Below, piece by piece: positions 2,503-54,689 of a stretch of DNA of 64,000 bases. How positions within the stretch are numbered: position 1 is the first letter of the stretch; each line of letters starts with the position of its first letter. The notes beneath the pieces were generated by a model. It was not told where the DNA came from. It was given only the letters and a program-made list of their open reading frames with translations, and did not search any database. Origin of the DNA: a virus; the IMG/VR virus record IMGVR_UViG_3300028920_001037, positions 1 to 64,000 of that record. One strand, 5' to 3'. The position numbers were made by a program, and so were the translations under genes.

Positions 2503-3924
2503 TTACCAATTATGTAAATTTTCATGTCTATCTAATACCGCTTGAAATCCCCAATTCCAGTTAGGTTTAAGATCTTTGGAATGAGAAAGAAAAAGAACTT
2601 TAGCTTTTGGTTTTTTTGGTTCTGGAGCAAACATATCACTAAATATTACAACCCCATCACATTTAGTTTCATCAGCATAATCCAAGACCTCTTGAAAGTC
2701 TGTACCTCCCCTACCACAAATTTTAAAAGTCTTTTTGGCAGTCTTTAATTTAGTTTCTATTTGTTTTATCTCTGTATCAAACAGAACGTATATCAGTTCA
2801 GCATGTTTGATTATCTTATTAATTACAGCAAAGCCTTCAGCTAAATCATCATCACTCATGGAACCAGAAACATCAACTGCAAAAATAATCTTAGTCTTTA
2901 AGAATCTTCTATGACCAGGATAAAGCAGGTCGAATCTTCTATTTGCTTTAAGTCTTGAATTAACTCTTGCATATGTTTCAACGGACTTTTTAAATTTCCT
3001 TATGATTTCTTTATAGGAAATCTTAGGTTCGTTAGCGGCTAGAATTTCAGCAATATAATCTCCTGTATGTTTTCCCCATGCTTTAATTCTATCTTTGTTT
3101 TTATCTACATAGTTTTTAACATCAGCATCAAACATATCATTCTTTCCCCAACCATTATTTGCTGTTCCGTTAGGATCGAAATAGTCTTTGACACCTTCTT
3201 GTGTATTATCATATTCTTTAAAACCGTCTTTATCTTTGTTTTGACCTTTGCCTTGACCTTGACCTTCGCCTTCATCTTCACCATTCTGTTCTTCTTGGTC
3301 TTGACCTTTGCCTTCTCCTTTGTCTTGACCTTTGTCTTCCCCTTCTTGATCTTGACCTTCTCCTTGCCCCTGTTGAGCTTGTTGCTGAGCTTTGTCAATC
3401 ATTTCTTGCTTTTCTTCATCGGTCATTGAATCCCAGATTTGCTTTATCATTTCATTAATTTGTTGTTGTCTATCATAAAGCTGTCTGAAATATTCTTCAA
3501 AACAATCTTTTTCTGGAAGATTGAACTGTTGTGCAGTCGGAATTAAATCTTCTAATGAAGTATCACCCTGAAGAAAAGCCATTGTATTCTGGCGAATAAG
3601 TTCATCAATGGCAATGTTAGAAGACAACGCAGAAATTTGTCTTGGCTCCTTAAGCCTTGTTGTACAATGTCTTAATAAAACCTTAAAAAAAGTATGAACC
3701 ATAACCATCTCCAAATATTCAACTGGCATCATATTAACAAAATTTGGATTGAAAGTTATTACAGGATGACGACCAGTAATATTAATACCAAAAGTTTCTT
3801 GATTGGGATCTGGATTAAAGTTAAACTGTGATGCTATTCCTAATAATATTGCATCACTAGTAAACCAATCCATTAAAACTTTCTGTATTTTCTTTTCAGC
3901 TTTTTTTACTTTGTCTTCATCCAT
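2503..3924 (-). CDS. VWA domain protein with degenerate metallopeptidase-like N-domain (DUF2201-type)
   Basis: 473 residues. The N-terminal domain resembles the putative metallopeptidase domain that precedes VWA-like domains in DUF2201 proteins, but the usual HExxH is replaced by HTFFKVLLRH (residues 77-86), so peptidase activity is doubtful. A middle segment of about 70 residues is low-complexity and made of Gly/Gln/Asp/Glu/Lys. The C-terminal VWA domain has an intact MIDAS start DVSGSMS. It pairs with the MoxR ATPase directly upstream (start and stop overlap by one base). In bacteria MoxR-VWA pairs act as chaperone-like or metal-insertion machines. The phage substrate is unknown. Confidence 0.85.
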   Translation of the reverse strand: MDEDKVKKAEKKIQKVLMDWFTSDAILLGIASQFNFNPDPNQETFGINITGRHPVITFNPNFVNMMPVEYLEMVMVHTFFKVLLRHCTTRLKEPRQISALSSNIAIDELIRQNTMAFLQGDTSLEDLIPTAQQFNLPEKDCFEEYFRQLYDRQQQINEMIKQIWDSMTDEEKQEMIDKAQQQAQQGQGEGQDQEGEDKGQDKGEGKGQDQEEQNGEDEGEGQGQGKGQNKDKDGFKEYDNTQEGVKDYFDPNGTANNGWGKNDMFDADVKNYVDKNKDRIKAWGKHTGDYIAEILAANEPKISYKEIIRKFKKSVETYARVNSRLKANRRFDLLYPGHRRFLKTKIIFAVDVSGSMSDDDLAEGFAVINKIIKHAELIYVLFDTEIKQIETKLKTAKKTFKICGRGGTDFQEVLDYADETKCDGVVIFSDMFAPEPKKPKAKVLFLSHSKDLKPNWNWGFQAVLDRHENLHNW

Positions 3925-5141
3925 TACTTTAACCAGGGTTTATCATTATCATCGTCCGGATAACCATCAAGTCCTAAGTCACTATCGAAATCATTTTGAT
4001 CATTATCGTTCTCATGAATCATTCTTTCAACATCTTTCTCATGCTGGTCTTTACCTCTAACAACATCAACAAAGTAGTTAACAAGTTTGTCAGAATGTTC
4101 TAACAATGTATTCTGCCAAGTTTCTTGGTTGTTAGTTGCCTGATTGATAAGTCCAAAGAAGTGCGCGATAATCTCTTTAGGAACAGTACTAAGGTACTTA
4201 TAAACATTATGTGCATATTCTTCACCTGCTTTTCTTGCGATAAACAGACTATCGATATGCTGTTTAATATAGACTGCAAGTTCATCATTAATATTAATAA
4301 GATCCTGATTAGGTAGACTCTTAATTGTCTTTTCCAAATCCTTATTCCAATTAGTCACAATGAGACCAACATTAATACCCTTCATGTTTTCTTTAACATG
4401 CATACAGAACTTTGAAGCGGCGCCGATACCAACGATTGTGCTGGCAACCAGTTTTAATTTGTAATCTACATCTTGAAGAATTTCGGGATGGTTATTAATA
4501 ATATCAGAAAGTCTTTTCCAAGAACGGCGTGACTGATAGACTTCACCTGTTTTCTTTTTTGTTGGTGGGTCTAAATAGTTTGCGGAGTTCTTTGATATGA
4601 ATCCGATAACATATTTGTTAACCTTATTTTTAAGTGCCCAATCAATCCATTCTTCTTTATCGGGAAGAAAAGGAACTTTGTTAAATCTATCAAGAAGAGT
4701 GACTTCAAGTTCAGTAACATCGTAATCAGTATCATCACCGAAAGGATTGATAGCTGCGATAACTCTTGTTTCGGGTGGAAGTTTCTTTCCACAAAGTTTA
4801 CGGTTGAGAACCATATCTTGTACACATTGGAGAACTTCAGGCTTTGCACGGTTGAGTTCATCAAGAAAGATAACTACTTTCTCTCCTTCTTTCGGCCACC
4901 ACCAAGGTTGACAAAAGATTGTCACCTTAGTATGGTCAATCTCTGCACGGTCTGGCAAACCAATAAGGTCACCGGCATCAGCCATCTGTGAACAGAAAAG
5001 AATAATTACTCGGAATCCTTTTTCTTCCCAGTATTCTTTTACAAATTCTGATTTACCAACGCCGTGAATTGCCTCAAGCATGATTGCTTGGTCAGCAGGA
5101 GTCGTATCAAAGATCAGCTTCATATCTTTAATATTAGCCAT
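3924..5141 (-). CDS. MoxR-family AAA+ ATPase
   Basis: 405 residues. It shows Walker A GVGKS (residues 27-31), Walker B VVIFLDE followed by LNRA, sensor-1 region IAAINP and an arginine-finger segment LLDRF, in the order of MoxR/CoxD ATPases. A helical C-terminal half of about 200 residues follows and ends in an acidic tail. It is encoded immediately before the VWA protein, the usual partner, so the two probably work as one complex that remodels a target protein. Residues for ATP binding and hydrolysis are present. Confidence 0.9.
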   Translation of the reverse strand: MANIKDMKLIFDTTPADQAIMLEAIHGVGKSEFVKEYWEEKGFRVIILFCSQMADAGDLIGLPDRAEIDHTKVTIFCQPWWWPKEGEKVVIFLDELNRAKPEVLQCVQDMVLNRKLCGKKLPPETRVIAAINPFGDDTDYDVTELEVTLLDRFNKVPFLPDKEEWIDWALKNKVNKYVIGFISKNSANYLDPPTKKKTGEVYQSRRSWKRLSDIINNHPEILQDVDYKLKLVASTIVGIGAASKFCMHVKENMKGINVGLIVTNWNKDLEKTIKSLPNQDLININDELAVYIKQHIDSLFIARKAGEEYAHNVYKYLSTVPKEIIAHFFGLINQATNNQETWQNTLLEHSDKLVNYFVDVVRGKDQHEKDVERMIHENDNDQNDFDSDLGLDGYPDDDNDKPWLK

Positions 5142-5916: not shown

Positions 5917-6894
5917 CTAAGTACAACTCCAATATGTTATTTTTCTTTTAATATTACTTTCCATTCTATCTAGTCTTTCCATTAACATTTTAACAGAAAC
6001 ATATTCCGTATCTTGTTTTTGCATATTAGATTCTGAACCGTACCATTGTTCTATACAGTTAGCTAATAGTTTCTGGACTAGTTCTCTCTGTGGTCTTTCA
6101 GGTACAGCTTTACTATTCACAAAGACTGAATCAAGTTCTTTTAATCTTCTTTCAAAGAACTCTTCAAACTTAGTATAACTTCCCCATTCACCTGCACGCA
6201 TGGCTTTACATTCTTCTTTATTTCTTGTAAGGTCTAGATCACCTTCTGTAAGAAGTTGGTGTATAAGGTCAAGCAGTCTAAGAGAATGATAACTCATTTT
6301 AACATCATAACCATGCTTTTCATAAAGTGGTAGTCTGTTTGAGTTGTCGTTCTTATGTTCTGTTTCCCAGCGTACTGCTTCCCTTCTTATTCTCGCAAAT
6401 TGAGAATAAGCATAACCTTTAAATGATTGATACATTTTCTTTGAAAGGAATAACTTTCTTTGATCCCTTATCATCCAACCAATATCATGTGCATATGTAA
6501 CTAAGTTTCTCTTAACGAAAAGAACTTCCGTAAGGTTTGGAGAACCATTAGATACAAGATCAAAGAAATTGGTTAGTGAATGCCAAGCAGCTTCATAAAC
6601 TTTATCATGCTTGCCTTTAGTTATAACAAGTTTTTGGCCTTCACCTTTGCATTCCTTGTTCTTAAACTTAGGCACATTATTGTCATAACCAAGTATAAAT
6701 CCATAAGCCTGTGGATAAAGGCATTTATGTGGATCCATAACAACACCAACTATGTCATAGTCCGAATCCGGATTATTACATTCGTAGGCATGGCTACCCA
6801 TTATACATTCCATTAAAAGGTTATCAACCATCCATTGTTCTTCTGGTTTGAACCTTTGTTCTGCAAAATGTTGTGTTAATTTTTTGTCTTTCAT
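5917..6894 (-). CDS. RlaP-type nucleotidyltransferase
   Basis: 325 residues. The core GSHAY (residues 33-37) followed by NPDSDYDIVGVVMDP (residues 41-55) is the nucleotidyltransferase signature of the RlaP family (RNA-ligase-associated nucleotidyltransferase). The two metal-binding aspartates of DxD (Asp45, Asp47) are present. T4-like and other large phages carry members, often near RNA-repair genes. The window also holds a CCA-adding enzyme, a kinase and a HAD phosphatase, so an RNA-end function is reasonable, though no RNA ligase is seen here. Its start overlaps the end of the next upstream gene by 4 bases. Confidence 0.8.
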   Translation of the reverse strand: MKDKKLTQHFAEQRFKPEEQWMVDNLLMECIMGSHAYECNNPDSDYDIVGVVMDPHKCLYPQAYGFILGYDNNVPKFKNKECKGEGQKLVITKGKHDKVYEAAWHSLTNFFDLVSNGSPNLTEVLFVKRNLVTYAHDIGWMIRDQRKLFLSKKMYQSFKGYAYSQFARIRREAVRWETEHKNDNSNRLPLYEKHGYDVKMSYHSLRLLDLIHQLLTEGDLDLTRNKEECKAMRAGEWGSYTKFEEFFERRLKELDSVFVNSKAVPERPQRELVQKLLANCIEQWYGSESNMQKQDTEYVSVKMLMERLDRMESNIKRKITYWSCT

Positions 6895-7244
6895 AATTTT
6901 CCATTTGTAAATTTAGCTTCTGTATCTAAATACTTACCTGTATATAACCATACATCTTCAGCTATTTCTGTATATGATTCTTCATCATAAGGGCCACCAT
7001 GACCGCCCGAATGATATTCTGTTGTTCCAAATAATGCTGTATATTCGCAACCACAATCACTTACAAATTCTGTAAGGAAAACTCTATCTACAACATTATG
7101 TATTTTTCCTTCTCGCAACAATAATGATTTTTCAAAGACATTAAGTTCTTTATATTTCACATCAAATGGTATAAGGCTTTCATCATTAAATACTATAAAG
7201 CTAGATGATGAACTATTACTTACAAATCCTATTCTTACTTTCAT
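6891..7244 (-). CDS. GFVSNSSSSSF-family protein (copy 1)
   Basis: 117 residues. It begins MKVRIGFVSNSSSSSFIVF, the N-terminal signature shared by six proteins between 6891 and 9709. The rest is acidic and has no similarity to its siblings that I can see. It includes a CGCEY segment and a Gly/His-rich loop (SGGHGGPYDEE, about residues 75-86). There is no lipobox, long hydrophobic core or obvious signal peptidase site, so the N-terminus is not a normal export signal. Function unknown. Copy 1 is separated from the other five by an ASCH-domain gene. Confidence 0.85.
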   Translation of the reverse strand: MKVRIGFVSNSSSSSFIVFNDESLIPFDVKYKELNVFEKSLLLREGKIHNVVDRVFLTEFVSDCGCEYTALFGTTEYHSGGHGGPYDEESYTEIAEDVWLYTGKYLDTEAKFTNGKL

Positions 7245-7655
7245 TTAAATCTCCACATTAAAAATACCTTGTCTACCCTTGCAAGGTATTGGTTTTTCTA
7301 ATCTTACAACATCTGTTAAGAATAAACCAAATCGTTTTGTGTTAGTACAATCTATCAAAGCATATTTAGAATGTAGTCGGTTTAACCAACCTACATCTTC
7401 AACAAAAGCTGTACATACAATGTGACCACCGAAATATGCGTCCATACTTACAGCTAGAATTTTAATAGGCCTATCTTTTTTGAATAGCCATTTAAATGAT
7501 GACTTATAATCCTTATCAAATTTCTTAGAAGCATGAATAGCTATTCGTTGTCCTTTTAAATTTTTAAATCTATCATGAGTTCTCGTTTCAATGGTTTTAT
7601 AACCATGAGAAATCCAACATGCCCAAGGTTGCCATAAAGTAATTGCTTTCAACAT
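7245..7655 (-). CDS. ASCH-domain protein
   Basis: 136 residues. The start ITLWQPWACWISHGYKTIETR fits the ASCH domain (PUA-like RNA-binding fold) with its conserved W-PWA...G-KTIETR pattern. The domain fills the whole protein. ASCH proteins bind RNA or modified nucleosides, and one group are amidohydrolases of N4-acetylcytidine. It lies inside the GFVSNSSSSSF gene cluster and overlaps copy 2 by 7 bases, so it is part of the same transcript. Confidence 0.82.
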   Translation of the reverse strand: MLKAITLWQPWACWISHGYKTIETRTHDRFKNLKGQRIAIHASKKFDKDYKSSFKWLFKKDRPIKILAVSMDAYFGGHIVCTAFVEDVGWLNRLHSKYALIDCTNTKRFGLFLTDVVRLEKPIPCKGRQGIFNVEI

Positions 7656-7975
7656 TCCTCCCAGTCAAAATAAACTTTAGTTTTAGGATCTACTAAACTT
7701 TGAACTATTTCTTTTACTATTCGTTCAACATCTTCTTCAGCACCATATTCAATACTTTGAATTGTAATAATGCGTTTGTCTTTATATTTATCTAGTAACT
7801 CATTCAAACTATTTCTATCATATTCATCGTCTTCTTCATAATATTCGTTGTATTCCAAATACTTTTTCTTATTATATTCTTTCAATAATTTTGGATCGTC
7901 TTGGGCAAAATTATCAATAGAAACAATAAAACTACTACTTGAACTGTTACTTACAAACCCTGTTCTAATTTTCAT
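7649..7975 (-). CDS. GFVSNSSSSSF-family protein (copy 2)
   Basis: 108 residues. It starts MKIRTGFVSNSSSSSFIVS, then an acidic, lysine- and tyrosine-rich helical region (YNKKKYLEYNEYYEEDDEYD) and an RIITIQSIEYGAEEDVE segment. Only the first 17-18 residues resemble the other copies. The start overlaps the 3' end of copy 3 by 11 bases. Confidence 0.85.
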   Translation of the reverse strand: MKIRTGFVSNSSSSSFIVSIDNFAQDDPKLLKEYNKKKYLEYNEYYEEDDEYDRNSLNELLDKYKDKRIITIQSIEYGAEEDVERIVKEIVQSLVDPKTKVYFDWEEC

Positions 7976-8480
7976 CTTTATCCCCCTTCAGGAATTTTTG
8001 GAATTCTGAATATGATTTAAACTTATTTTTAATCTCCTTAATTGTTTCTTTCTTTGTAGTGTTAAATTTCTTATAAAGATATTTAACTACATCATCATTA
8101 TCAACTTCTTTCATAGAACAGATTGGACAAAACTCTTCTGGAAGACCACAATCTAAAATCCAATCACTAAAGGCCTCTTCAAGTTCTCCTTCTTCCATTC
8201 CCTCTATATCTTTAATTTCTTTTTCTTTATCATCGATATATTTACTTTTGTTGATTCTATCGATGATATATTTCTTTTTATCCAGGCCTATTTCATCATA
8301 ATCTATTTCGCTATAACTGCCTAATTTAGCACATGAGTTATGAAACTCATGACCATTAACACACATTGACATTTCCATATCTGATAAACTCATATCTCGA
8401 CCAGATTCAATCGCTCCACATACTGCACATATAAATGATGTTGTGCTTGAGTTACTTACAAATCCATATCTTTTTTTCAT
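7965..8480 (-). CDS. GFVSNSSSSSF-family protein (copy 3) with RING-like Cys/His module
   Basis: 171 residues. It starts MKKRYGFVSNSSTTSFICAVC, the most divergent tag of the set (TT replaces SS). The tag runs directly into CAVCGAIESG, with C and H residues in MCVNGHEFHNSC and later CPICSMKE. This gives an ordered Cys/His series like a RING or other cross-brace zinc module, interrupted by about 70 residues of acidic helix. A lysine-rich C-terminal helix ends the protein. It shows that the tag is fused to quite different bodies. Zinc binding is inferred from spacing only. Confidence 0.85.
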   Translation of the reverse strand: MKKRYGFVSNSSTTSFICAVCGAIESGRDMSLSDMEMSMCVNGHEFHNSCAKLGSYSEIDYDEIGLDKKKYIIDRINKSKYIDDKEKEIKDIEGMEEGELEEAFSDWILDCGLPEEFCPICSMKEVDNDDVVKYLYKKFNTTKKETIKEIKNKFKSYSEFQKFLKGDKDEN

Positions 8481-8481
8481 A

Positions 8482-8799
8482 TTAGTCTCCTATTGTTGCA
8501 TATGAGTCTTTTTGTTTTTTAATTAAATCTACAAATTTATATAATCCATCATAGGCTTCTTCCCAACCATCATCATCAAAACTACAATCATAGAAAAGAT
8601 CCTCAGTACATACTCGTTGAACAGATACTATTTTATTTTCTCCCATAACTTTTTCTTTTTTAAATCTAAACGTATCTTTAATAGCTTCTTGTTCTATTTT
8701 TGATAAGCTCTTCAAAATCTTATTATAAGTTTCTTTGGTTGTTATAACAACAAAAGACGAACTAGAACTATTACTTACAAATCCCATTCTGATTTTCAT
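8482..8799 (-). CDS. GFVSNSSSSSF-family protein (copy 4)
   Basis: 105 residues. It starts MKIRMGFVSNSSSSSFVVIT, then a helix, a basic stretch (FRFKKEKVMGENK) and an acidic C-terminal region (DCSFDDDGWEEAYDG). No known domain is recognised. Spacing to copy 3 is one base, so translation is probably coupled. Confidence 0.85.
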   Translation of the reverse strand: MKIRMGFVSNSSSSSFVVITTKETYNKILKSLSKIEQEAIKDTFRFKKEKVMGENKIVSVQRVCTEDLFYDCSFDDDGWEEAYDGLYKFVDLIKKQKDSYATIGD

Positions 8800-8811
8800 T
8801 TGGCCCTTCTT

Positions 8812-9354
8812 TCATATTTGTGAATCCTCTATAACTTTACATATTTTTCTAATCTCAGGTCTTTCAAAACTAAAATGAATAACAATATCTTTTATTATTT
8901 GTGGAATATCATTACATGAATTATGCATAACTGTCCAAGCATTTAAAACAACATTATCAAATTCTTCGGTAACATTTATATTATACATGTTTCCAAGAAT
9001 CCATTTGATTGCTGGAACTAATTCAACTACAAAGTTACCCTCTTCGTTTCCAGATGTATCTATACTGTTAATTGAACTTATTGTTTCTAAATGTTTAAGC
9101 TGGGATTTCATTTCATTTAAGTGTTTCTTATTACGAAAATGAAACTTACCGTTTTTATCTTTCCTTTCAGCTTCCAATCCTTCTTCATATTGTTCAATTC
9201 TTTCTTTCAAGTCTGTATAAAGAAAGTTAATATCAAAGTAATCAAAACCTAAAGCATGATATATTTCATGTATAAATTCTTCTGTGTTCATGTTGAACTT
9301 AACAACATAAGAAGCTGAAGAACTATTACTTACGAATCCAGATCTTATCTTCAT
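8812..9354 (-). CDS. GFVSNSSSSSF-family protein (copy 5)
   Basis: 180 residues from the ATG at 9354. A frame five codons longer exists, but the shorter start matches the siblings' MKIR start and follows directly on the stop of copy 6. The tag is MKIRSGFVSNSSSASYVV, with the final Phe changed to Tyr. The body is mostly helical with a charged coiled-coil-like segment around residues 45-90. No family is recognised. Confidence 0.82.
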   Translation of the reverse strand: MKIRSGFVSNSSSASYVVKFNMNTEEFIHEIYHALGFDYFDINFLYTDLKERIEQYEEGLEAERKDKNGKFHFRNKKHLNEMKSQLKHLETISSINSIDTSGNEEGNFVVELVPAIKWILGNMYNINVTEEFDNVVLNAWTVMHNSCNDIPQIIKDIVIHFSFERPEIRKICKVIEDSQI

Positions 9355-9355
9355 T

Positions 9356-9709
9356 CTATCCACACTCATGTAAAATTTCTATATTACCAGAATTATGAAT
9401 CAAATCATTAAGAACATCATCATGATATGAAACTTCAACAAGAGCTAATGTTTTATCAGTATCATCATATTTCTTAATTTTCTCAATAGATTTATCATCA
9501 TCATACCAACTAGCAAGTTCCTTAATAATATCGTCTTTACCTTCAGCAACAACATTGTTATCACTATTGTAATAAGAAGCTTTTTCAATTAGCTGTAAAA
9601 TATTCATATCACTTCTACCACAATGAGGGCACTTGTTTATATTTTTATCAACAGCAATAACAAAAGAACTTGAACTACTGTTACTTACAAAACCTGTACG
9701 AATTTTCAT
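9356..9709 (-). CDS. GFVSNSSSSSF-family protein (copy 6)
   Basis: 117 residues. It starts MKIRTGFVSNSSSSSFVIAV, followed by a CPHCGRSD knuckle and a long acidic, partly helical region, with H-E-C-G at the C-terminus. That end could complete a zinc site with the CPHC. It is the first copy transcribed and overlaps the QueC-like gene by 4 bases, so the tag family and that enzyme are in one operon. Confidence 0.85.
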   Translation of the reverse strand: MKIRTGFVSNSSSSSFVIAVDKNINKCPHCGRSDMNILQLIEKASYYNSDNNVVAEGKDDIIKELASWYDDDKSIEKIKKYDDTDKTLALVEVSYHDDVLNDLIHNSGNIEILHECG

Positions 9710-10341
9710 ATCGTCAACCTTTCTGAATCATCTTTAAGATATAAGTTACACATTTTCAACAATTTACATGGTCTACAATAACCACATGCTTTATTTTTCT
9801 CAGTTGGACATTCACAAGTCCAAACATATTTTTCTAGTTTATTATTTCTAATGTCTGCTATTATACTATGTTTATCTTTCCATTTAAGGGGAAAGTTAAT
9901 CCAAATCTTTTTATTTAAAGCTTCTAAAATAGTTTGACCCATACTTTCATATTTAGAACATTGGTGCCAAAAATCATCACCACGGTGAAATCCAAACGAT
10001 ATAGTTGCATTGTCCGGCACAAACCATAATGAGTTTAACATCCAAAATGTTTGTTGTGGTAATAAATTATCAGCATATAATTTACCATAGTCAATTTTAA
10101 TAATATTATCTATTATATTCCAATTTTTCTTTTTAGCAAACTCTATAAACTTCTTTCGGTAACTTAACTCCAAAATTCTTTTTTCTTTACTGATTCCCTT
10201 TAAATCAAAATAAAGGGTATGACAACAACCGTGTTCTTTTAAAATATCATATAAAATTAATGTACTGTCATACCCACCAGACCATACAACCCAATTAGTC
10301 TTGTTTGTTGTTAAACTAGAATTATATATTGCTTTACCCAT
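9706..10341 (-). CDS. QueC-like PP-loop ATPase
   Basis: 211 residues. It has the PP-loop SGGYDST (residues 21-27), which binds ATP in adenylating enzymes. The C-terminal CECPTEKNKACGYCRPC resembles the four-cysteine zinc site of 7-cyano-7-deazaguanine synthase (QueC). QueC makes preQ0, and phages use that pathway to modify guanine in DNA. However, no FolE, QueD, QueE or DpdA-type gene is seen in this window, and the central region is divergent. A different amide- or nitrile-forming reaction is therefore possible. It sits between a radical SAM enzyme and the GFVSNSSSSSF genes. Confidence 0.7.
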   Translation of the reverse strand: MGKAIYNSSLTTNKTNWVVWSGGYDSTLILYDILKEHGCCHTLYFDLKGISKEKRILELSYRKKFIEFAKKKNWNIIDNIIKIDYGKLYADNLLPQQTFWMLNSLWFVPDNATISFGFHRGDDFWHQCSKYESMGQTILEALNKKIWINFPLKWKDKHSIIADIRNNKLEKYVWTCECPTEKNKACGYCRPCKLLKMCNLYLKDDSERLTI

Positions 10342-10352
10342 TATTTAAATTT

Positions 10353-11390
10353 CTAAACATTATATATTGGACAATTCCTATGACAATCTAAAAGAGTCTT
10401 ACGAAACTTATTGACTCTTGGATGATTCCATATATCTCTAACAAAATCTTTGCATTCTAAAACATCAATACCATCAACCCATTCTCCAGAACCTTCGGCA
10501 AACGAACATGGAAAAAATTCAGCATTAACACCAATATACGAACTAAAACAACTTGATTCACAAGGTTCAGCCAACATTGCAAGTTCACCATAATCTTCTC
10601 GACCAGCAACTGCTTTGAGAAACTTATTAGCAGAACAACTGTCAAAACCAATCGGAACCTTTTTCTTAAATGCATAATCAATGAGTTTCTTAAACTCATC
10701 TTCTGTAACTGTATTGTATTTAGTTCCTCTACCCTTCTGTTTAAGTGAAAGGAATACAATAGCATTTAAACCTTTAATTCTTGGTTCATTCTTATAATCA
10801 TCAATAGTTTTAAACGCATCTTCATATGTTTCTTTACTTAACATATAATGAATATTAACCTGTTTCATTCCTCTATCGACTAGTTTCTTAACTGAATCAT
10901 AGCAAATATTATAGTTAGAATATCTTGATACAGCAACTGCTCCACATAGTTTGGCTAGCTTATCTGCTGTATCATCCGAAATATCAGCAACTGTTATATT
11001 AGGAACGATTTTCTTATACCTTGCATACTCCATCATCTTAAATAGTTCTGGATTAGATGTTGCTTGAGCGTCTGCACCAAAAGCTATTTGAGTTAATGTA
11101 TCTGGCATCTTATCCATTATCTTTTTGAATGTATCAAAAGACATATTAATTCCGTTAGGATTATTACTTTTGTAACAGAAAGGGCATAACTTTCCACCGG
11201 GTCCAGCACATTTAGTTGTAACTTCAATATCTAGAATCTCTGCACCGAATTCACAGAAGTCTGGATCTCTTTCCTTTGTACTTCCCCAACGAGCAAATAT
11301 ACCATTCTTCTTATTGAATACATAATTATATTCGGGTGAAGAAAGAATTTTATAAGTTTTATTTTCTTTAATCTCGTAAGTTGTTTCCAT
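10353..11390 (-). CDS. radical SAM protein with atypical CX7CX2C cluster and Cys-rich C-terminus
   Basis: About 345 residues from the ATG at 11390, which has GAGGAA at the right distance. An upstream ATG in the same frame lies deep in the neighbouring gene. The iron-sulphur motif is C61-x7-C69-x2-C72 (CAGPGGKLCPFC), longer than the standard CX3CX2C. The C-terminal third has further cysteines (CESSCF, FPCSF, CHRNC) like a SPASM or twitch domain that holds extra clusters. Such domains are typical of peptide- or protein-modifying radical SAM enzymes. It is encoded upstream of the PP-loop ATPase and the tagged proteins. The substrate is unknown. Confidence 0.82.
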   Translation of the reverse strand: METTYEIKENKTYKILSSPEYNYVFNKKNGIFARWGSTKERDPDFCEFGAEILDIEVTTKCAGPGGKLCPFCYKSNNPNGINMSFDTFKKIMDKMPDTLTQIAFGADAQATSNPELFKMMEYARYKKIVPNITVADISDDTADKLAKLCGAVAVSRYSNYNICYDSVKKLVDRGMKQVNIHYMLSKETYEDAFKTIDDYKNEPRIKGLNAIVFLSLKQKGRGTKYNTVTEDEFKKLIDYAFKKKVPIGFDSCSANKFLKAVAGREDYGELAMLAEPCESSCFSSYIGVNAEFFPCSFAEGSGEWVDGIDVLECKDFVRDIWNHPRVNKFRKTLLDCHRNCPIYNV

Positions 11391-11658
11391 ACTTAACTTC
11401 CTCATGTCTTGTATCATAAATTTCAAAATCTAACAGTTTATGTCTTGGTGTAGTAATTAACAGAAATAGACCATCATGGTCACCTTTCCAATTAATATCA
11501 ATGTCTATCCTAAGTAGTCCAAATCCTGTGTGCAATCGAAAACATTTCTTAGTGATAGTTATTTCACATCCGAAATTATAAACCGGATATTCATCCCAAT
11601 TTTTTTCCGAACATATTTCTACATGACAATTTTTACTAACTGGAAAATCAATATTCAT
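11368..11658 (-). CDS. hypothetical protein, beta-rich
   Basis: 96 residues. No family is recognised. Alternating hydrophobic residues (CEITITKKCFRLHTGFGLLRIDIDI) suggest beta strands. Its start overlaps the stop of PncB, and its 3' end overlaps the radical SAM gene by 23 bases, so it links the NAD gene to the radical SAM/tag operon. Confidence 0.7.
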   Translation of the reverse strand: MNIDFPVSKNCHVEICSEKNWDEYPVYNFGCEITITKKCFRLHTGFGLLRIDIDINWKGDHDGLFLLITTPRHKLLDFEIYDTRHEEVKYGNNLRD

Positions 11659-12905
11659 TAATAAACCGTCTCCACATCTGTTTGTTCAGGTTGAAAAATG
11701 CTCTGATACATTTGTATATAAGCTGGAGTTCCTGTTGCTTTCTTAATGTTATCGCTAAGCTTAACTGTTTGTTCTTCATTGACACCAGTTGCTTTAATAA
11801 CTATACTTAATGGTTTAATTCCAACAGAATTTGTAAGATCTGTTCCCCAACCGAAATATACTTTAAACTTATCTTTAAACTCTTCTTGTATTTTAACCAT
11901 CTTATCTACATTCAAACCATCCGAAAAGATAACCTTTTTCGTTTTAGTATCTATTCCGAACTTCTTATAATGTTCAATCATTTTATAACCGAACTTAATT
12001 GGGTCGCCCGAATCTTGTCTAACACCTACACATTTAGTTGCAAGTTCTTCGTCAAAGTCTTTAAGGAAAGCATTAGTTCCAAACGTATCTGTAAGCATGA
12101 TACTTAATGGTTCACCATAATAATCATACCATTCGTTCATAGCTTTCTTTTGGGCATCTAATAAACTCTTAGAATCAGGAAGAGTTAAACAATCTCCTGC
12201 ACTTCTTTCATACTCAATAGCTGCCCTAACCATAAAAAATTCATGAGCTTGTGTTCCTATTGGATTAAGACCAAGTTCTTTAGCCATTAAATAGTTCGAT
12301 GTTCCCAATATATTATTAGGACATTCATCTCTACAAATTTCAAGAATAGCTTTCTGCCAGTTACCCGAATGTCTTCGTCTTGTTCCAAAGTCTATAAACT
12401 TAATATCATGTTTTTTAATTATCTTTATTTTTTCTTGAAGCTTTCCAATAGCATCATTTCTCATTTTATAAATACAAGTATCGGTTAATCCTTCTAATAC
12501 CGATCTAGCAAACAGTTCGTTTATGATACCAAGAATCATTGTTTCATATAAAATCGAACATTGCCAACGATTAGTAAAATGCAAGTTGAGTTTATCATGT
12601 TGTAATTGATATGTAAATTCTGTATCATATTTTTGTCTTGCCAACATATTAATAAAATGGTCTTTATATTCTGGTTGGTTTTTTAAATATGTCAAATCAT
12701 CATAGCTAAAGCGCAGGCTTTTCATATGATTGATTTGTTCAACTAGTTCATCCATGTCAAGAAAATTGGCTAGTTTTATTGACATTGTTCTATTACTAAA
12801 CGAATAAGTAACTTTCTCATTTGGATACAGGTCATTAACAATTTGGCACATTGTTAGTTTATACTTATCCAAATCCAACATGCTATCAATAATAGGTTTA
12901 TCCAT
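11658..12905 (-). CDS. pncB: nicotinate phosphoribosyltransferase
   Basis: 415 residues, near the length of Escherichia coli PncB. It joins nicotinate to PRPP with ATP hydrolysis to give nicotinate mononucleotide. Visible family marks are DLDKYKLTM near the N-terminus, DFGTRRRHSG (about 172-181), GTSNYLMAKELGL and GTQAHE (His221, the histidine phosphorylated in PncB enzymes), RQDSGDP, and VIFSDGLN. These fit PncB rather than NAMPT: the aligned E. coli PncB blocks are collinear along the whole chain. AAAGGA precedes the start, and a strong early-type promoter lies at 12927-12955. With PncA, NadD and NadE it completes the deamidated NAD salvage route. Confidence 0.93.
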   Translation of the reverse strand: MDKPIIDSMLDLDKYKLTMCQIVNDLYPNEKVTYSFSNRTMSIKLANFLDMDELVEQINHMKSLRFSYDDLTYLKNQPEYKDHFINMLARQKYDTEFTYQLQHDKLNLHFTNRWQCSILYETMILGIINELFARSVLEGLTDTCIYKMRNDAIGKLQEKIKIIKKHDIKFIDFGTRRRHSGNWQKAILEICRDECPNNILGTSNYLMAKELGLNPIGTQAHEFFMVRAAIEYERSAGDCLTLPDSKSLLDAQKKAMNEWYDYYGEPLSIMLTDTFGTNAFLKDFDEELATKCVGVRQDSGDPIKFGYKMIEHYKKFGIDTKTKKVIFSDGLNVDKMVKIQEEFKDKFKVYFGWGTDLTNSVGIKPLSIVIKATGVNEEQTVKLSDNIKKATGTPAYIQMYQSIFQPEQTDVETVY

Positions 12906-18660: not shown

Positions 18661-18689
18661 AATATAATATATTTCAATAGAAATGTCAA
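18661..18689 (-). promoter_or_regulatory. early-type promoter between the Nudix gene and the 18641 ORF
   Basis: Minus strand TTGACA (18689-18684), 17-base spacer, TATATT (18666-18661), then AAAGGAG and the ATG at 18641. The -35 box overlaps the stop of the Nudix gene. Confidence 0.7.
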
Positions 18690-19243
18690 GTGATATGATT
18701 TGTTCTAGCAAAATATTTCATTATCAATAATGCTTTAGCACCAAATTTTTTATCTTTTTGTAATAGTAATTCTTTAACTTCTCCTTGATTCAATAAGAAT
18801 TGTTCTATGTCTTCTGAAGCTTCTAAATTATTTATAGACAATTCTCCATTTGCTTTTACAAAAGCTATAGCAATACTTTCATCTGTAATACCAGGAGAAT
18901 TAAAAACAAATGGAGTTACCTCATAAATTAACTCAAGGTCTAATCCAGTTTCTTCTTTTAGTTCTCTCCTAATACAATCTTCAACGGGCTCGTTTTCATC
19001 AATGAGTCCAGCAGGGAATCCCCATTCATAATCTTTAATGGAAACCCTAAACTCTTTTATGATACATATCTTATTATTATCAGTTTCAGATTCAACAATA
19101 GGAATAATCATAACTGCTTTAATATTATTGGGTCTACTAACCCAACTCCATTCTTTATGATTACCTTCATTATCTTCATATTGAGTTGAATGAAGCTGAA
19201 GATATTTAGATACATTTCTGCAATCGTCTTTCCAAATTTTCAT
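18686..19243 (-). CDS. Nudix hydrolase, ADP-ribose pyrophosphatase-like
   Basis: 185 residues. The Nudix box is complete: it starts at G79 (GLIDENE), with REL at 93-95 and KEETGL ending near 101, giving the metal-binding REx2EE core. ITDESIAIAFV after the box fits ADP-ribose pyrophosphatases, which split ADP-ribose to AMP and ribose 5-phosphate. It is directly downstream of NadD (4-base overlap), and the NadD-Nudix pairing recalls fused NMN adenylyltransferase-Nudix proteins. It may recycle ADP-ribose left when NAD+ is cleaved. Substrate assignment is an inference. Confidence 0.85.
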   Translation of the reverse strand: MKIWKDDCRNVSKYLQLHSTQYEDNEGNHKEWSWVSRPNNIKAVMIIPIVESETDNNKICIIKEFRVSIKDYEWGFPAGLIDENEPVEDCIRRELKEETGLDLELIYEVTPFVFNSPGITDESIAIAFVKANGELSINNLEASEDIEQFLLNQGEVKELLLQKDKKFGAKALLIMKYFARTNHIT

Positions 19244-19830
19244 CGGTATAATCCATTCTGTTTAATATATTTTATAACATTTTTATACATAATTTTTTGT
19301 TGTAAGTCATTATCATTGTTAGCAATAGCTTCTCTTGCTTGTGTGGATGAATAATCTTTTTTGTGTTTTTTAAATACAACAGTAGATGGATCCCATTTCA
19401 ATTCTTCATCATTATAACCTTCACGTTGAAAAACTATAAAAGGAACAGTCTTTAAAAGATCTTCCCACTTATACCATTTATCAATTTCAATTGCACAATC
19501 CATTCCAATAATTACATAAAAGTTTATATGCTTATAAGATTCCATTAAACTTCTTATTGTATTATAAAATTTACCATCAGACTTCTTTTGAATTTCATGT
19601 AAACAAACCAACATATTATCTTTATGTTTTATTGAACGATAAATCATTTCTATCCTATGAAAAGAATCAGTAGATATTTTTCCAAGGTTATGAGAGAAAC
19701 ATGGCATAAACCAAACTTGATCAACCAAATCATATGATAAAACTGTTTCTGCAACTTCAACATGACTCTTAGTACAAGGGTTAAAAGATCCACCAAAAAT
19801 ACCTACACGTATCTTTTGTTTATTCTTCAT
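19240..19830 (-). CDS. nadD: nicotinate-nucleotide adenylyltransferase
   Basis: 196 residues. It has the nucleotidyl-transfer motif GGSFNP...H (residues 13-18, His23) and the second motif SSTQAR (161-166). VWFMPCFSHN and FYVIIGMDCAIEIDKWYKWEDLL line up with NadD, which adenylates nicotinate mononucleotide to deamido-NAD. Acceptance of NMN as well cannot be excluded. It overlaps NadE by 11 bases and the Nudix gene by 4, forming a NadE-NadD-Nudix transcript. Confidence 0.88.
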   Translation of the reverse strand: MKNKQKIRVGIFGGSFNPCTKSHVEVAETVLSYDLVDQVWFMPCFSHNLGKISTDSFHRIEMIYRSIKHKDNMLVCLHEIQKKSDGKFYNTIRSLMESYKHINFYVIIGMDCAIEIDKWYKWEDLLKTVPFIVFQREGYNDEELKWDPSTVVFKKHKKDYSSTQAREAIANNDNDLQQKIMYKNVIKYIKQNGLYR

Positions 19831-20713
19831 TGAAAATATCTTTCCTATTAATTACAATAGGCCAGTTTCTTTTAAAATGTGTTGCTTTATATCTTTTGAT
19901 AACTGGATGATTACTATATAGTTCTCTAAAATTAACAAAGCTTTCATAGTCTTCAAGTCTATTCTTATACTTCAACCAATCATCCCAAGTAAAACTATCT
20001 TGGTCTTTTGTTAACCAAGTTTTTAAAAGCAGATCAACTTCTTCATATGATTTTGCACCAAGTTGATCTAAATCTGAATTAGAAACACCAAGACCGTCTG
20101 TTGGATTTGCTTCAACACAAATTCCTAAAGATGTTATTTTGTCTTGATCTTTTAAACAACTATATTCATTAACAACAATCCATCTTGCAACTTCATATAC
20201 CTCTGTTTTCCAAAGCTGTTGAATCATTCCATAATCTCCAACATCACCACAAAGCGTCCAGAAACCTAAATAATATTCAGTTAAGTTATCAGTTGAAAGA
20301 ACTATTCCTTTTTTTACTTGTGCAAGATTATAAAGATAAATCATTCTTAATCTGGCTTTAATGTTACCTCTTCTTATCTTGTCGGCTTTAGAATCCCACT
20401 CGACACAATCATGTAAATCATCTGTCAATTGATAATAAGAATGTATAAGACTTTGATCTTCCAAGAAATCGTGACAAAAGGATTCTCCAACTAATTTTGC
20501 TCTTTCAATTTCGTCTTGTTTGTTTGACTCAATTGGAAGACTTCTACCAATAAGAGGAATATCCAATTCATCACAAACAGGTCTTGCTAATGCACAACAT
20601 AAAGCTGAATCAATTCCACCAGAAACTCCAATGACTAAAGATTTTATATCATATTTAATAATATAATCCTTTAATTCTTTTTGGATATTTTTAACAACCA
20701 GTTCACAATTCAT
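19820..20713 (-). CDS. nadE: NAD synthetase, ammonia-dependent type
   Basis: 297 residues. The ATP-pyrophosphatase loop SGGIDSA (31-37), RRGNIKARLRMIYLYNLA, STDNLTEYYLGFWTLCGDVGDYGMI and KTEVYEVARWI are the hallmarks of NadE, which amidates deamido-NAD to NAD+. There is no N-terminal glutaminase domain, so it should use free ammonia, as the 275-residue E. coli enzyme does. The C-terminal HFKRNWPIVINR fits the family end. First gene of the nadE-nadD-Nudix run. Confidence 0.92.
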   Translation of the reverse strand: MNCELVVKNIQKELKDYIIKYDIKSLVIGVSGGIDSALCCALARPVCDELDIPLIGRSLPIESNKQDEIERAKLVGESFCHDFLEDQSLIHSYYQLTDDLHDCVEWDSKADKIRRGNIKARLRMIYLYNLAQVKKGIVLSTDNLTEYYLGFWTLCGDVGDYGMIQQLWKTEVYEVARWIVVNEYSCLKDQDKITSLGICVEANPTDGLGVSNSDLDQLGAKSYEEVDLLLKTWLTKDQDSFTWDDWLKYKNRLEDYESFVNFRELYSNHPVIKRYKATHFKRNWPIVINRKDIFNEE

Positions 20714-24533: not shown

Positions 24534-25373
24534 TTACATTCCTATCATTTTAAAGAAATCTTCCTCACTAATGATTCTAATTCCTAGTTGATTTGCTTTC
24601 TTAGTCTTTGAAGATGTTGAACTAGGATCTGCTTGAATTAATCCAGATACACCCTTCTTAACCGTCTTTTCACAAGAACCACCGTTCTCATAAACCAATT
24701 CCTGCAACATGTTTCTTGTGTACCTGTTTCCGTTTTCATCGATTCTCTGAACTGCACCAGTAAATACAAAAACTTCTCCATCCAATTGACTTGAACTCAC
24801 TTCAACCTCCTTAGGTTTTTCAACACCTTTTATTGTGATAACTTCCAATAATTTTTTAATTGTAGTTTTCTTTTTGGACAATCCATAAACAATTTCTTCT
24901 GCAACTCTATCACCAATTCCTTTAATACGGACAAGTTCTTCCTCACCTATATTTAACATTTTATCCAGAGTATCAATTCCATTTTCAATCAATAATTCTG
25001 CTCTAGACTTTGAAAAATTAGGAATGTTTAATCCATCAATGAAGGTTGCTAAATCTATTTCTTTCTTGTCATTAAAGTTCTTAATAATCTTCTTAGCTGA
25101 CTTAGTTCCCATGCCCTGAAGATTTGCTATTCTGTTTTCATCAAGTCGATAGAAATCTGAAGGGTCATAGACTATTTCAGCATTTTCAAACAATTCAATA
25201 GTCTTTATACTTATTGCATCAATGTCAAGTGCATCAACCCATTTCTGAAGATTGCCTATCCTTAATCCTTTACATTCAGTATTTTCACACATTAAATAAG
25301 TTCCGTCGTTATTTAATTCTTCATTACACATTGGACACCATAAAGGCGGTTTGAAATATTTTTTATTCTCCAT
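24534..25373 (-). CDS. ligA: NAD-dependent DNA ligase, C-terminal part (zinc finger, HhH, BRCT)
   Basis: 279 residues. It contains the parts of bacterial LigA that follow the OB domain: a four-Cys zinc finger (CPMC...CENTEC, residues about 12-33), the helix-hairpin-helix region (LQGMGTKSAKKI, RIKGIGDRVAEEI) and a C-terminal BRCT domain (GEVFVFTGAVQ...GGSCEKTVKKGVSGLI). In E. coli LigA the same order starts right after the point where the separate N-terminal ORF (25626-26753) ends. The two are probably one functional ligase made of two chains. Between them lies a small zinc-finger ORF. Confidence 0.88.
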   Translation of the reverse strand: MENKKYFKPPLWCPMCNEELNNDGTYLMCENTECKGLRIGNLQKWVDALDIDAISIKTIELFENAEIVYDPSDFYRLDENRIANLQGMGTKSAKKIIKNFNDKKEIDLATFIDGLNIPNFSKSRAELLIENGIDTLDKMLNIGEEELVRIKGIGDRVAEEIVYGLSKKKTTIKKLLEVITIKGVEKPKEVEVSSSQLDGEVFVFTGAVQRIDENGNRYTRNMLQELVYENGGSCEKTVKKGVSGLIQADPSSTSSKTKKANQLGIRIISEEDFFKMIGM

Positions 25374-25625: not shown

Positions 25626-26753
25626 TTACTCAATAATTTTTTCAATTTGTGGTATAACATCTCCACGTCTAGAAATTAAAACTTTTGCATTTTTATAAGG
25701 TTTAAGTTCATTAAAAACTTTTAAATTATGTAATGATGCTTTTGTTACTACTACACCACCAACTTTAACGGGTTTAAGTATAGCAACTGGTGTAATTCTA
25801 CCACTAGATCCAGTCTGCCATTCTATATTTTCTAAAATAGTTTCAGCCTTCATTGCACCGAATTTCCAGGCTATATGTGCCTTTGGATTTCCATTAAGTT
25901 CACCCAAAATTTTTTGTAATTTAACATTATTGCATTTTACTACGAGACCATCTATATCATATTTAGTTTGTGCCCTTAAATGGTCTTCATAATCATTATA
26001 AACATTAACAGCATCATTAACTGTTACTTTTTTATAATAACATGTTTTAATATTATTATCTTTTAACCATTGTAGTTTTTGTTCTTCAGTTTCCCAATCA
26101 CCTGTAATATCATAATACAATACTGTAAGGTATTCTGAATTAGTTCCATCATATCGTTTTGATATACCACTAGCTGCATTTCTTGGATTCTTCATTTCTT
26201 TTTCACATCGTTCCATCAAAATGAAGTTTAGTTTCTCAAAATCAGAAACAAGCATTATAATTTCTCCACGAAGGGAACCTGTAAAATTTTTAATGTTACC
26301 CAACACATTCTTCATTTTCCTAACATTGTTGAGTATATTTTCACCTTCAATTCCATCTCCACGGGTAATTGCCTTAACTAATTTGCCGTTTTCATACTCA
26401 AGGTCAACGCTAATTCCATCCAATTTATCCATGATTATATAGTGCGAATCTCCGATGGTATCAGACCATTTGATAAATTCTTCTTGCGTATTTACCTTAT
26501 TTAGGGAACACATGGGGATTTTATGGGTAGCCTTCTCCCATTCTGTGACACCAACTTTAGCTCCGATGCGATTAACGAAATCATCTGTGGGAAATCTTTC
26601 AGCATATATTTTAGTAGCTTCGTCAAACTCTTGGTCTGACATGGTTGGTTCTGATTTGTTATAATAGTGGTCGCTAGCTTCAAGTAGCATTTTTTTGAGG
26701 TCTTCTTGTTTCATATGTCTAAACACATCATATAAATTTATTACCGACATCAT
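25626..26753 (-). CDS. ligA: NAD-dependent DNA ligase, N-terminal part (Ia, adenylation, OB)
   Basis: 375 residues. It has the YY-containing Ia-like start (HYYNKSEPTMSDQEFDEATKIYAE), the adenylation motif KLDG (Lys110), TRGDGIEGENI, RGEI, NPRNAASG-like and AWKFGA segments, and ends in the OB domain at SRRGDVIPQIEKIIE. In E. coli LigA the zinc finger follows this point directly. Here a stop codon intervenes and the rest is encoded as a separate ORF from 25373. The NAD+ requirement links it to the salvage genes nearby. Confidence 0.92.
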   Translation of the reverse strand: MMSVINLYDVFRHMKQEDLKKMLLEASDHYYNKSEPTMSDQEFDEATKIYAERFPTDDFVNRIGAKVGVTEWEKATHKIPMCSLNKVNTQEEFIKWSDTIGDSHYIIMDKLDGISVDLEYENGKLVKAITRGDGIEGENILNNVRKMKNVLGNIKNFTGSLRGEIIMLVSDFEKLNFILMERCEKEMKNPRNAASGISKRYDGTNSEYLTVLYYDITGDWETEEQKLQWLKDNNIKTCYYKKVTVNDAVNVYNDYEDHLRAQTKYDIDGLVVKCNNVKLQKILGELNGNPKAHIAWKFGAMKAETILENIEWQTGSSGRITPVAILKPVKVGGVVVTKASLHNLKVFNELKPYKNAKVLISRRGDVIPQIEKIIE

Positions 26754-28946: not shown

Positions 28947-30131
28947 TTATATTTCAAGAAAATCAGCTAATCCCTTTTTTTGTCCGGTTTTTACAGGTTC
29001 TTTTTCAGGTTCATCCTCATGGAAACCAAACATATCTTTAACGTAATCAGCTGGTAACCTATTTTTATCCTTAGATTTAAGGCTTTTAAACACATCTGGA
29101 TCTTTATCAATTGCCATTCTCATTATATCAATATCAGGATCTTCTATATAAGTAACTGCATATGGATCAGCCTTAACAGCGGCTTGTTGAACTTCTCTTG
29201 GTGGATCTTTAATATTTTTAATTCCTAATGGCGATTTAGTAACTGCTCTAAGCATATCTTCTATTTCGACTTTTGCTCTTTCACTTTCAGCAGTTTTACC
29301 ATAAACATCTTTAACATAAGCTGCCCAAGGACCTCTTAAATCTTGACTAATTCTAGTAAGACCTTTATATGGATTATCAAAATAAAATGACATTGGATTA
29401 CTAATATATCTTTTATCATCTAGTATTTTTTTAATCCTAAATGAATCCAACTCTTTATTCTTTGTAAATATTGAACCTGTATTATGTTCTAAATCAAATA
29501 CATAATCCAAATATTCAAACTGTTTACGCTGGTTTACATTAGGAACATCTAATGCTTGAATAGCTGATTCCGCTATATTCTTCCACGCACTTCCACCATA
29601 TTGATCGCTTATCCAACCACTTCCATCTGCAAATGCAAACTTAGCAAACTCAAATAAATCAAAAGGTCTATATCCATATTTCTTCATAAATTCTTTTGTC
29701 ATTTCATAAACATCTTTATAACCTTGTGCATAACTTACTTTATGTGGTTCCAATATAAGTTTATCCGATGATGTTCTCTTGTCTGGGTCTGCAAAATATT
29801 TAACATAATCCAAGAAAAATTTCTTTACTCTATCTCCACCTTTTAACCATTTTGGTGGCTCACCTTCTAATGCTGATGGTTTTCTAAAATGTAAATAGTG
29901 CGCGATTTCAGCTGATATTGCTAATTTTAAATTATATAAAAGTTCTTTATACCAATAATCTATAATGGTTTTTTGTGCATCCTTTAAAGCATAAGCTAGA
30001 TCTTCATCTCTTAAAGAATCTGGATTTATAACAGACAATGCATAAAAATCATACATGGCAGAATAAAAGTCTTCTGGTTTATAATGCCAGTTAGAAAAAA
30101 GTTCTTTAAGATAATAATCTTTAAATCTCAT
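28947..30131 (-). CDS. capsid-targeting-tag protein 4
   Basis: 394 residues, start MRFKDYYLKELFSN. No enzyme domain is recognised in the rest, which is rich in aromatic and charged residues, with possible ordered helices throughout (SAIEIAHYLHFRKPSALEG-like stretch near residue 70, and DPYAVTYIEDPDIDIMRMAIDKDPDVFKSL near 325). A possible structural or effector internal protein. The stop/start overlap with the next gene is four bases. Confidence 0.75.
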   Translation of the reverse strand: MRFKDYYLKELFSNWHYKPEDFYSAMYDFYALSVINPDSLRDEDLAYALKDAQKTIIDYWYKELLYNLKLAISAEIAHYLHFRKPSALEGEPPKWLKGGDRVKKFFLDYVKYFADPDKRTSSDKLILEPHKVSYAQGYKDVYEMTKEFMKKYGYRPFDLFEFAKFAFADGSGWISDQYGGSAWKNIAESAIQALDVPNVNQRKQFEYLDYVFDLEHNTGSIFTKNKELDSFRIKKILDDKRYISNPMSFYFDNPYKGLTRISQDLRGPWAAYVKDVYGKTAESERAKVEIEDMLRAVTKSPLGIKNIKDPPREVQQAAVKADPYAVTYIEDPDIDIMRMAIDKDPDVFKSLKSKDKNRLPADYVKDMFGFHEDEPEKEPVKTGQKKGLADFLEI

Positions 30132-30836: not shown

Positions 30837-31132
30837 TTTGTAAATTTTCCTTTTAATTTTTTAGCTTCTTCTAGTGCTATTTTATATTCTTCATTTGTTG
30901 GAAACCTTTCGGTTAATCTTTTAATAGCATTTACAATCATCTTTTTATTTTCTTCATCTAGAAAACCACGACCAATCATAGTATAATAAAAACCATTTAA
31001 GATTTCATCAGAAGATAAATTACTATTATTAACTTCATCTAATTCTTTATCGGTTGGATCTCTGTATATAGTTTCATTAAATATACTAGGTTTGCTATTA
31101 ATGTTTTCTTTTAAATATTGTTTAAAGCTCAT
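30833..31132 (-). CDS. capsid-targeting-tag protein 6
   Basis: 99 residues from the ATG at 31132 (MSFKQYLKENINSK), which overlaps the stop of the CCA-adding gene as ATGA. An in-frame start four codons earlier would spoil the tag. The body is helical and charged, with no domain recognised. Confidence 0.75.
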   Translation of the reverse strand: MSFKQYLKENINSKPSIFNETIYRDPTDKELDEVNNSNLSSDEILNGFYYTMIGRGFLDEENKKMIVNAIKRLTERFPTNEEYKIALEEAKKLKGKFTK

Positions 31133-54422: not shown

Positions 54423-54689
54423 TTAATGTGATAGATATAAGTCTATAGTTTTCTTATCAAAACCAATATCTATTAAATATTTCTCTTGTGCTTCCGATAA
54501 TCTTTTAACTGCCACAAACATATTTTCATTATTATTATTTAAATGTGTAACTTTTACCCATCCTTTTTGTTCTAACTCTTGTTCTGTAAATCCAATTTTT
54601 TCTGAAAACTTAACATGTTCACCATAACCACAAGGATAAAAATTGCCATCTCTATCTATCCACCCTGTTGTTGGTGTTGTTTCTTTCAT
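54423..54689 (-). CDS. small hypothetical protein
   Basis: 88 residues. DRDGNFYPCGYGEHVKFSEK suggests a small metal or peptide fold, and the C-terminus is helical (SEAQEKYLIDIGFDKKTIDLYL). Overlaps the HAD gene by 38 bases. No tag. Confidence 0.68.
   Translation of the reverse strand: MKETTPTTGWIDRDGNFYPCGYGEHVKFSEKIGFTEQELEQKGWVKVTHLNNNNENMFVAVKRLSEAQEKYLIDIGFDKKTIDLYLSH

Follow-up and report, generated by a model that had tools for sequence, protein, structure and literature searches.

Six neighbouring genes on the minus strand of a virus (IMG/VR record IMGVR_UViG_3300028920_001037, positions 1 to 64,000, in the following called the window) encode proteins that share a Ser-rich N-terminus of 17 residues. 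Based on sequence comparisons, we consider it probable that a dedicated radical S-adenosylmethionine (SAM) enzyme, which is encoded beside this N-terminal tag, recognises it and most likely also modifies it. A sequence-only reading of the window had described six neighbouring paralogues with a common N-terminus, and all six open reading frames (ORFs) are indeed present between 6891 and 9709, each opening with M-K-x-R-x-G-F-V-S-N-S-S-x-x-S-[FY] at its own start codon. The tagged genes and the proposed enzyme are arranged as follows:

6891..7244, minus strand: tagged protein 1, MKVRIGFVSNSSSSSFIV; tag at 7194-7244; body relatives in loci L007 and L076 (cluster 14)
7649..7975, minus strand: tagged protein 2, MKIRTGFVSNSSSSSFIV; tag at 7925-7975; weakly linked with body clusters 9 and 0
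7965..8480, minus strand: tagged protein 3, MKKRYGFVSNSSTTSFIC, with a Cys/His body; tag at 8430-8480; belongs to a body family of 29 members
8482..8799, minus strand: tagged protein 4, MKIRMGFVSNSSSSSFVV; tag at 8749-8799; no body relative found
8812..9354, minus strand: tagged protein 5, MKIRSGFVSNSSSASYVV; tag at 9304-9354; body relative in locus L107 (cluster 20)
9356..9709, minus strand: tagged protein 6, MKIRTGFVSNSSSSSFVI, with a CPHC body; tag at 9659-9709; body relatives in loci L009, L080 and L133 (cluster 9)
10353..11390, minus strand: radical-SAM protein of about 346 amino acids, the proposed tag-acting enzyme; phrog_7293 (1.6e-125); Pfam Radical_SAM at 3e-4, below the cut-off

A degenerate form of the tag pattern matched five of the six ORFs exactly and was found in 0 of 100 dinucleotide shuffles, which excludes a chance origin of the tags in the window. 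The remaining ORF, that of tagged protein 5 (MKIRSGFVSNSSSASYVV), deviates from the pattern by one Ala; an in-frame ATG lies earlier, at 9369, and the tag starts from the ATG at 9354. No seventh tag was found in the whole 75-kb virus record that contains the window. The expectation that similar N-termini occur in other unannotated proteins was borne out by a pattern search, in which the exact tag was detected in at least 120 stretches of IMG/VR and in 35 stretches of the GTDB genomes (one genome per species, bacteria and archaea). The latter include Firmicutes, Treponema, Deltaproteobacteria, Verrucomicrobia and Sulfuricurvum as well as Loki-, Heimdall- and Thermoplasmata archaea. A tblastn search with the tag alone gave no matches, which is probably an effect of the low-complexity filter.

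About 320 tagged proteins were parsed, and the tag is located at the extreme N-terminus throughout. In detail, the start codon lies exactly five codons upstream of the G/D position in 457 of the 466 tag matches from all loci, and the remaining nine read MAKxR or MTKxR. The consensus of 17 residues is M-K-[IVT]-R-x-[GD]-F-[VI]-[ST]-N-S-S-x-x-S-[FY]-[IVC], in which K2, R4, G/D6, F7, N10, S11, S12, S15 and F/Y16 are invariant or nearly so and positions 13 and 14 tolerate other small or polar residues. As the sequence-only reading had stated, the tag is too polar for a signal peptide and has no lipobox: the consensus is polar and Ser-rich, has no fixed Cys and therefore offers neither a hydrophobic core nor a lipoprotein site. 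It also contains no Glu, so that a prohead-protease site of the T4 type ([LI]xE) is missing. The additional claim that the DNA of the tag is conserved holds for the window, where GTAAGTAA is present in all six genes, but not beyond it. Over 314 tags, each Ser is encoded by a mixture of AGY and TCN codons, and Gly and Val are each encoded by all four of their codons. This free variation of synonymous codons indicates that selection acts on the peptide and not on the DNA.

Downstream of the common N-terminus the six proteins of the window diverge into unrelated bodies. The bodies of all tagged proteins fall into at least ten families at the profile level (some ten larger ones) plus many single ones. 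When the tag was removed, profile-profile comparison gave probabilities of about 14% or less between body families, and on these grounds a common origin of all bodies was rejected, even though weak single-sequence links exist between clusters 0 and 9, 1 and 5, 2 and 10 as well as 6 and RB43. The earlier statement that the bodies differ completely is thus correct at the profile level, but individual bodies are not restricted to this virus, as clusters 3, 9, 14 and 20 include members from the window and recur in other phages. Members of one family with the same body are found in phages that are very distant from each other, and most genomes have a single copy. New members of the body families were sought at the DNA level with motif patterns derived from the bodies only; 11 new full-length members were found, and the tag was present on 11 of 11. 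Hence, the bodies are mutually unrelated, yet none was seen untagged. The tagged proteins have a median length of 134 amino acids (range 72-691), and nearly all bodies (288 of 294) are net acidic. One to eleven tags occur per record, 115 of 172 successive tagged pairs are at most 30 bp apart and no locus has tags on mixed strands.

Known families for the bodies are not supported, since matches in Pfam, NCBIfam and PADLOC are single and mostly weak, with the exception of one DUF4325 match, and for two body families no convincing match was obtained in the Protein Data Bank. The family phrog_7397 matches 82 of 141 tagged proteins and covers the tag region of five proteins of the window. Furthermore, a short acidic motif near the C-terminus, for example [YF]SDNDGxxxxxLEHG or SDDSGDGLE, is found in several body families that are otherwise unrelated and is possibly a common feature missed by the profile comparison.

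The strongest indication of a function comes from the genes in the vicinity. At bacterial loci, a protein of about 350 amino acids with the start YNYxFNxxxGxFxRWG...GPELLDI..T.C is encoded directly before or after the tagged gene, and the window ORF 10353-11390 is the same protein. It is located upstream of the tagged genes in the same minus-strand gene run, and only a QueC-like ORF intervenes; its start is uncertain, with an ATG at 11390 and possible upstream starts up to 11426. Using a profile of this enzyme family (A8), we detected the family in 44 of 48 tag-bearing viral records, 42 of them at E<1e-50, compared to no strong match and two weak partial ones in 32 random contigs. For cellular genomes the numbers are 25 of 35 tag loci versus 0 of 81 random loci. 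The association also holds in the opposite direction: when the enzyme was the starting point, tags were present in six of six viral records and for four of four further Lachnospiraceae enzymes. Among 50,697 deposited phages, the enzyme was found in 172 and one tagged body family likewise in 172, with almost identical organism counts; these matches are mostly RB43/KP15-like T-even phages, and thus one lineage, and are annotated as hypothetical or "radical SAM protein". In viral records the enzyme is on the same strand as the nearest listed tag in 37 of 37 cases and within 5 kb in 29 of 37. In the 24 cellular loci measured, which include some near-duplicates, both are always on the same strand, and 22 are within 640 bp, mostly under 420 bp. 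As negative controls, two other neighbouring gene families were searched in the same 48 records. A QueC-like partner was rejected because the family is present in only 13 of 48, mostly with weak matches, and a partner of the MoxR-VWA (DUF2201) remodelling type, suggested by the neighbourhoods in the window and in RB43, was rejected with 7 of 48.

The assignment of this protein to the radical-SAM enzymes is based on the match to phrog_7293 and on conserved cysteines. Three cysteines of the Fe-S cluster are conserved at 97-100% over 80 sequences. Their spacing is CX3CX2C in bacterial members and CX7CX2C in the window enzyme. Further C-terminal cysteines are conserved in the family and resemble a SPASM domain; five bacterial members exceed the cut-off of the SPASM model TIGR04085, but the window enzyme does not. 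The nearest NCBIfam models of the bacterial members are the mycofactocin maturase MftC, WgkB and GeoRSP maturases, all far below their cut-offs, and the solved structures matched by a family sequence include SkfB, PqqE and the radical-SAM protein 5v1q. No PqqD-like RiPP recognition element (RiPPs being ribosomally synthesised and post-translationally modified peptides) appeared in the Pfam and NCBIfam matches of the neighbours scanned, in which no specific search for it was made. Both phrog_7293 and phrog_7397 are listed as of unknown function, and the putative link between the former (enzyme) and the latter (tag) is new here.

Additional evidence is provided by the co-variation of both partners. 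A FastTree phylogeny of the enzyme, rooted at the midpoint, separates three groups with support values of 0.21 (clade A), 0.96 (clade B) and 0.99 (clade C); the counts given here are raw and not corrected for shared ancestry. Clade A is associated with GFVSN (Ser9 in 54 of 54 loci), clade B with GFVTNSSST (Thr9 in 9 of 11, Thr14 in 11 of 11) and clade C with [GD]FVTN (Thr9 in 12 of 12, Asp6 in half of them). Even within a single body family (cluster 0) the tag switches together with the enzyme clade, with Ser9 in 22 of 22 members for clade A, Thr9 in 13 of 15 for clade B and Thr9 in two of two for clade C. Cys/His and LEHG bodies alongside clade C enzymes have Thr9 tags, too. The variant of the tag thus goes with the clade of the enzyme rather than with the family of the body, and without a reading of the tag by the enzyme this would be difficult to account for. 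Of the three fates that the sequence-only reading had offered for a recognition tag, modification is favoured by the accompanying and co-varying radical-SAM family, whereas nothing was found for packaging or transport. It had also been expected that a tag common in proteins with no shared fate would speak against such a role; the tag is common indeed, but its carriers have a partner enzyme in common.

Radical-SAM enzymes are known to oxidise, epimerise and cross-link peptides. It seems feasible that the enzyme, with its SPASM-like C-terminal cysteines, binds the basic and hydrophobic part of the tag (K2, R4, G/D6 and F7) and that a 5'-deoxyadenosyl radical then alters residues in the stretch N-S-S-x-x-S-F. 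By analogy, the candidate changes would be an oxidation of Ser, an epimerisation or a cross-link that involves F7 or F16. The contrast between the invariant N10-S11-S12 and S15-F16 and the tolerance at positions 13 and 14 points to a role of some Ser residues only. In this way one enzyme could put the same N-terminal modification on a whole range of phage proteins that are small and acidic but have unrelated bodies. An early role in infection is probable for the tagged proteins; in KP15, predicted middle promoters surround the enzyme gene, which suggests early to middle expression. In the literature searched, which covered few subscription papers and no preprints, the tag string did not occur and no description of radical-SAM tagging in phages was found, so that this is weak evidence of novelty. 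The proposal offers hundreds of unannotated phage proteins and the unnamed radical-SAM family phrog_7293 a biochemical role that can be tested, including those of RB43, RB16 and KP15.

Several points weigh against an enzyme acting on the tag. Its direct action is inferred from sequence comparisons. The window enzyme reaches no NCBIfam model, its Pfam Radical_SAM match is below the cut-off and RiPP precursors are usually far smaller than the tagged proteins. The association between clade and tag is uncorrected for shared ancestry, as mentioned above, and the support of clade A is low. Six of the 48 tag-bearing viral records have no strong enzyme match, and the same is true for 11 of 16 further viral records and 7 of 19 cellular assemblies; many of the enzyme-less records are fragments, but some viral ones comprise 114-261 kb. 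Finally, enzyme and tags are about 20 kb apart in RB43 and RB16.

This distance, together with the operon-like arrangement elsewhere and the fact that binding of the enzyme to the tag is deduced from sequences, would fit a linked cassette without any enzyme-substrate relation, in which the genes move as one mobile module while the tag has another reader, for example a binding partner from host or phage. We regard this as unlikely, because tag residues 6, 9 and 14 track the enzyme clade instead of the body family, other neighbouring genes (QueC, DUF2201) have no comparable linkage and the co-occurrence holds even where the genes are far apart. Even lower is the probability of a packaging or injection tag that directs its carriers to the capsid so that they are delivered along with the DNA, comparable to the capsid-targeting sequences of T4. 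A fixed N-terminus on variable bodies is known from the T4 internal proteins and many tag carriers are large tailed phages, but the [LI]xE cleavage site is missing, tags are also present in bacterial operons beside STAND nucleoside triphosphatases (NTPases) and the same phage has a separate T4-like N-terminus (MRFKEYYLTE...) on a different set of genes.

It is very improbable that the enzyme modifies a nucleic acid or nucleotide in the manner of QueE, with the tagged proteins as accessory factors. The QueC-like gene adjoins the enzyme in the window, and one RB43/KP15-like phage shows an unexplained resistance of its DNA to restriction (PMC5219037). On the other hand, the window enzyme matches no QueE model of NCBIfam, the QueC family is rare in tag-bearing records and the bacterial pairs of tag and enzyme examined adjoin STAND and not deazaguanine genes. 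A similarly slight chance is given to a degradation, translation-start or localisation signal for a universal host factor with a secondary link to the enzyme: the tag spans very different hosts, including bacteria and archaea, but this leaves both the clade-specific variants and the radical-SAM partner unexplained. A DNA or RNA element, such as a recombination site or a regulatory motif, that is incidentally translated has next to no probability. The conservation of GTAAGTAA in all six window genes is in its favour, but it is contradicted at the sequence level by the free synonymous codons with AGY/TCN switches at every Ser, and the only upstream signal is a purine bias of the Shine-Dalgarno type.

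The bacterial copies of the tag and the proposed radical-SAM enzyme provide a hint to a connection with phage-host conflict, as they are often found beside STAND genes resembling nucleotide-binding leucine-rich repeat (NLR) proteins. Several loci of clade B have the genes in the order NTPase, small ORF (about 135 amino acids), tagged gene and enzyme; such four-gene operons with a NACHT/STAND NTPase were noted in L128, L131, L132, L141, L147, L148 and L154. NTPases of this kind occur in these loci and in L135; they have NACHT or NPHP3-type STAND matches, which are mostly weak, and several carry N-terminal trypsin-like or SMEK domains. A NACHT/STAND NTPase with a trypsin-like or SMEK domain at the N-terminus is an architecture familiar from bacterial NLR-like defence. 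Judged by their gene content, the operons look like undescribed NLR-like conflict systems. A general modification system common to phages and bacterial immunity is a tentative and rather doubtful extension: one radical-SAM enzyme would mark many unrelated proteins in the same way at the N-terminus; in bacteria the marked protein would be a member of the NACHT/STAND (NLR-like) operon, while phage sets of marked effectors would engage or evade that machinery.

Two further ORFs lie within or next to the tagged genes of the window:

7245..7655, minus strand: untagged ASCH-like ORF within the cluster; phrog_3193 (2e-28), weak ASCH match
9706..10341, minus strand: QueC-like ATP pyrophosphatase between the enzyme and the tagged genes; Pfam QueC (9e-10), phrog_1550

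For the former we claim no membership in the tag system, and the latter is probably no obligatory part of it. A VWA-like gene or putative metallopeptidase (DUF2201) adjoins an AAA_5 ATPase at 2503-5141, and near the tagged gene of RB43 there are also a nucleotidyltransferase gene and a VWA-like gene with similarity to sll0103. A second common N-terminus, MRFK[ED][YF]Y[LF][TSN]E, occurs on about nine proteins with unrelated bodies on the minus strand between 28947 and 55191, with the following examples:

28947-30131, minus strand: MRFK-type N-terminus
31129-32580, minus strand: MRFK-type N-terminus
32590-33216, minus strand: MRFK-type N-terminus
33216-33959, minus strand: MRFK-type N-terminus
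49976-51337, minus strand: MRFK-type N-terminus
51347-52435, minus strand: MRFK-type N-terminus
54652-55191, minus strand: MRFK-type N-terminus

Its carriers include proteins similar to tRNA nucleotidyltransferases and deoxyribonucleotidases; the N-terminus resembles the T4 capsid-targeting sequence, and one member weakly matches the internal head protein family phrog_5750. The window also contains an ORF of 1694 amino acids that consists largely of (S)nE repeats (33990-39074), genes similar by eye to those of nicotinamide adenine dinucleotide (NAD) salvage (NAMPT-like, Nudix, NadD-like and NadE-like; 11658-12905 and 18686-20713) and an NAD-dependent DNA ligase that, by eye, is apparently split into an adenylation part and a zinc-finger/HhH/BRCT part (24534-25373 and 25626-26753).

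Compared to known systems, a short fixed N-terminus on unrelated bodies is also a feature of the capsid-targeting sequence of T4 internal proteins, but the tag differs in sequence, has no protease site and is present in bacterial genomes, too. For the FtsH ternary conflict systems, Kaur et al. (2020, PMC7159879) mention a radical-SAM domain for which modification of a peptide effector is likely; the available passages of that paper do not describe this tag, and the likeness is one of description. A likeness in gene content to the bacterial NACHT/STAND anti-phage operons is given by clade B pairs of tag and enzyme that directly adjoin such NTPases, whereas none was noted beside the phage copies. 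The radical-SAM/SPASM RiPPs, like mycofactocin (MftA/MftC), streptide, the sactipeptide system SkfA/SkfB and PqqA/PqqE, likewise have the enzyme gene beside the substrate candidates, and here, too, the candidates combine a fixed, leader-like N-terminus with a variable remainder. In contrast to these RiPPs, no NCBIfam equivalog is reached and no export or protease gene was identified here, and the lengths do not agree with a short precursor that yields a small mature peptide: the candidates are phage proteins with a median of 134 amino acids, belong to at least ten unrelated body families and occur several to a genome. If one enzyme indeed marks many unrelated proteins, this would represent a portable N-terminal labelling chemistry, unlike classical RiPP maturation.

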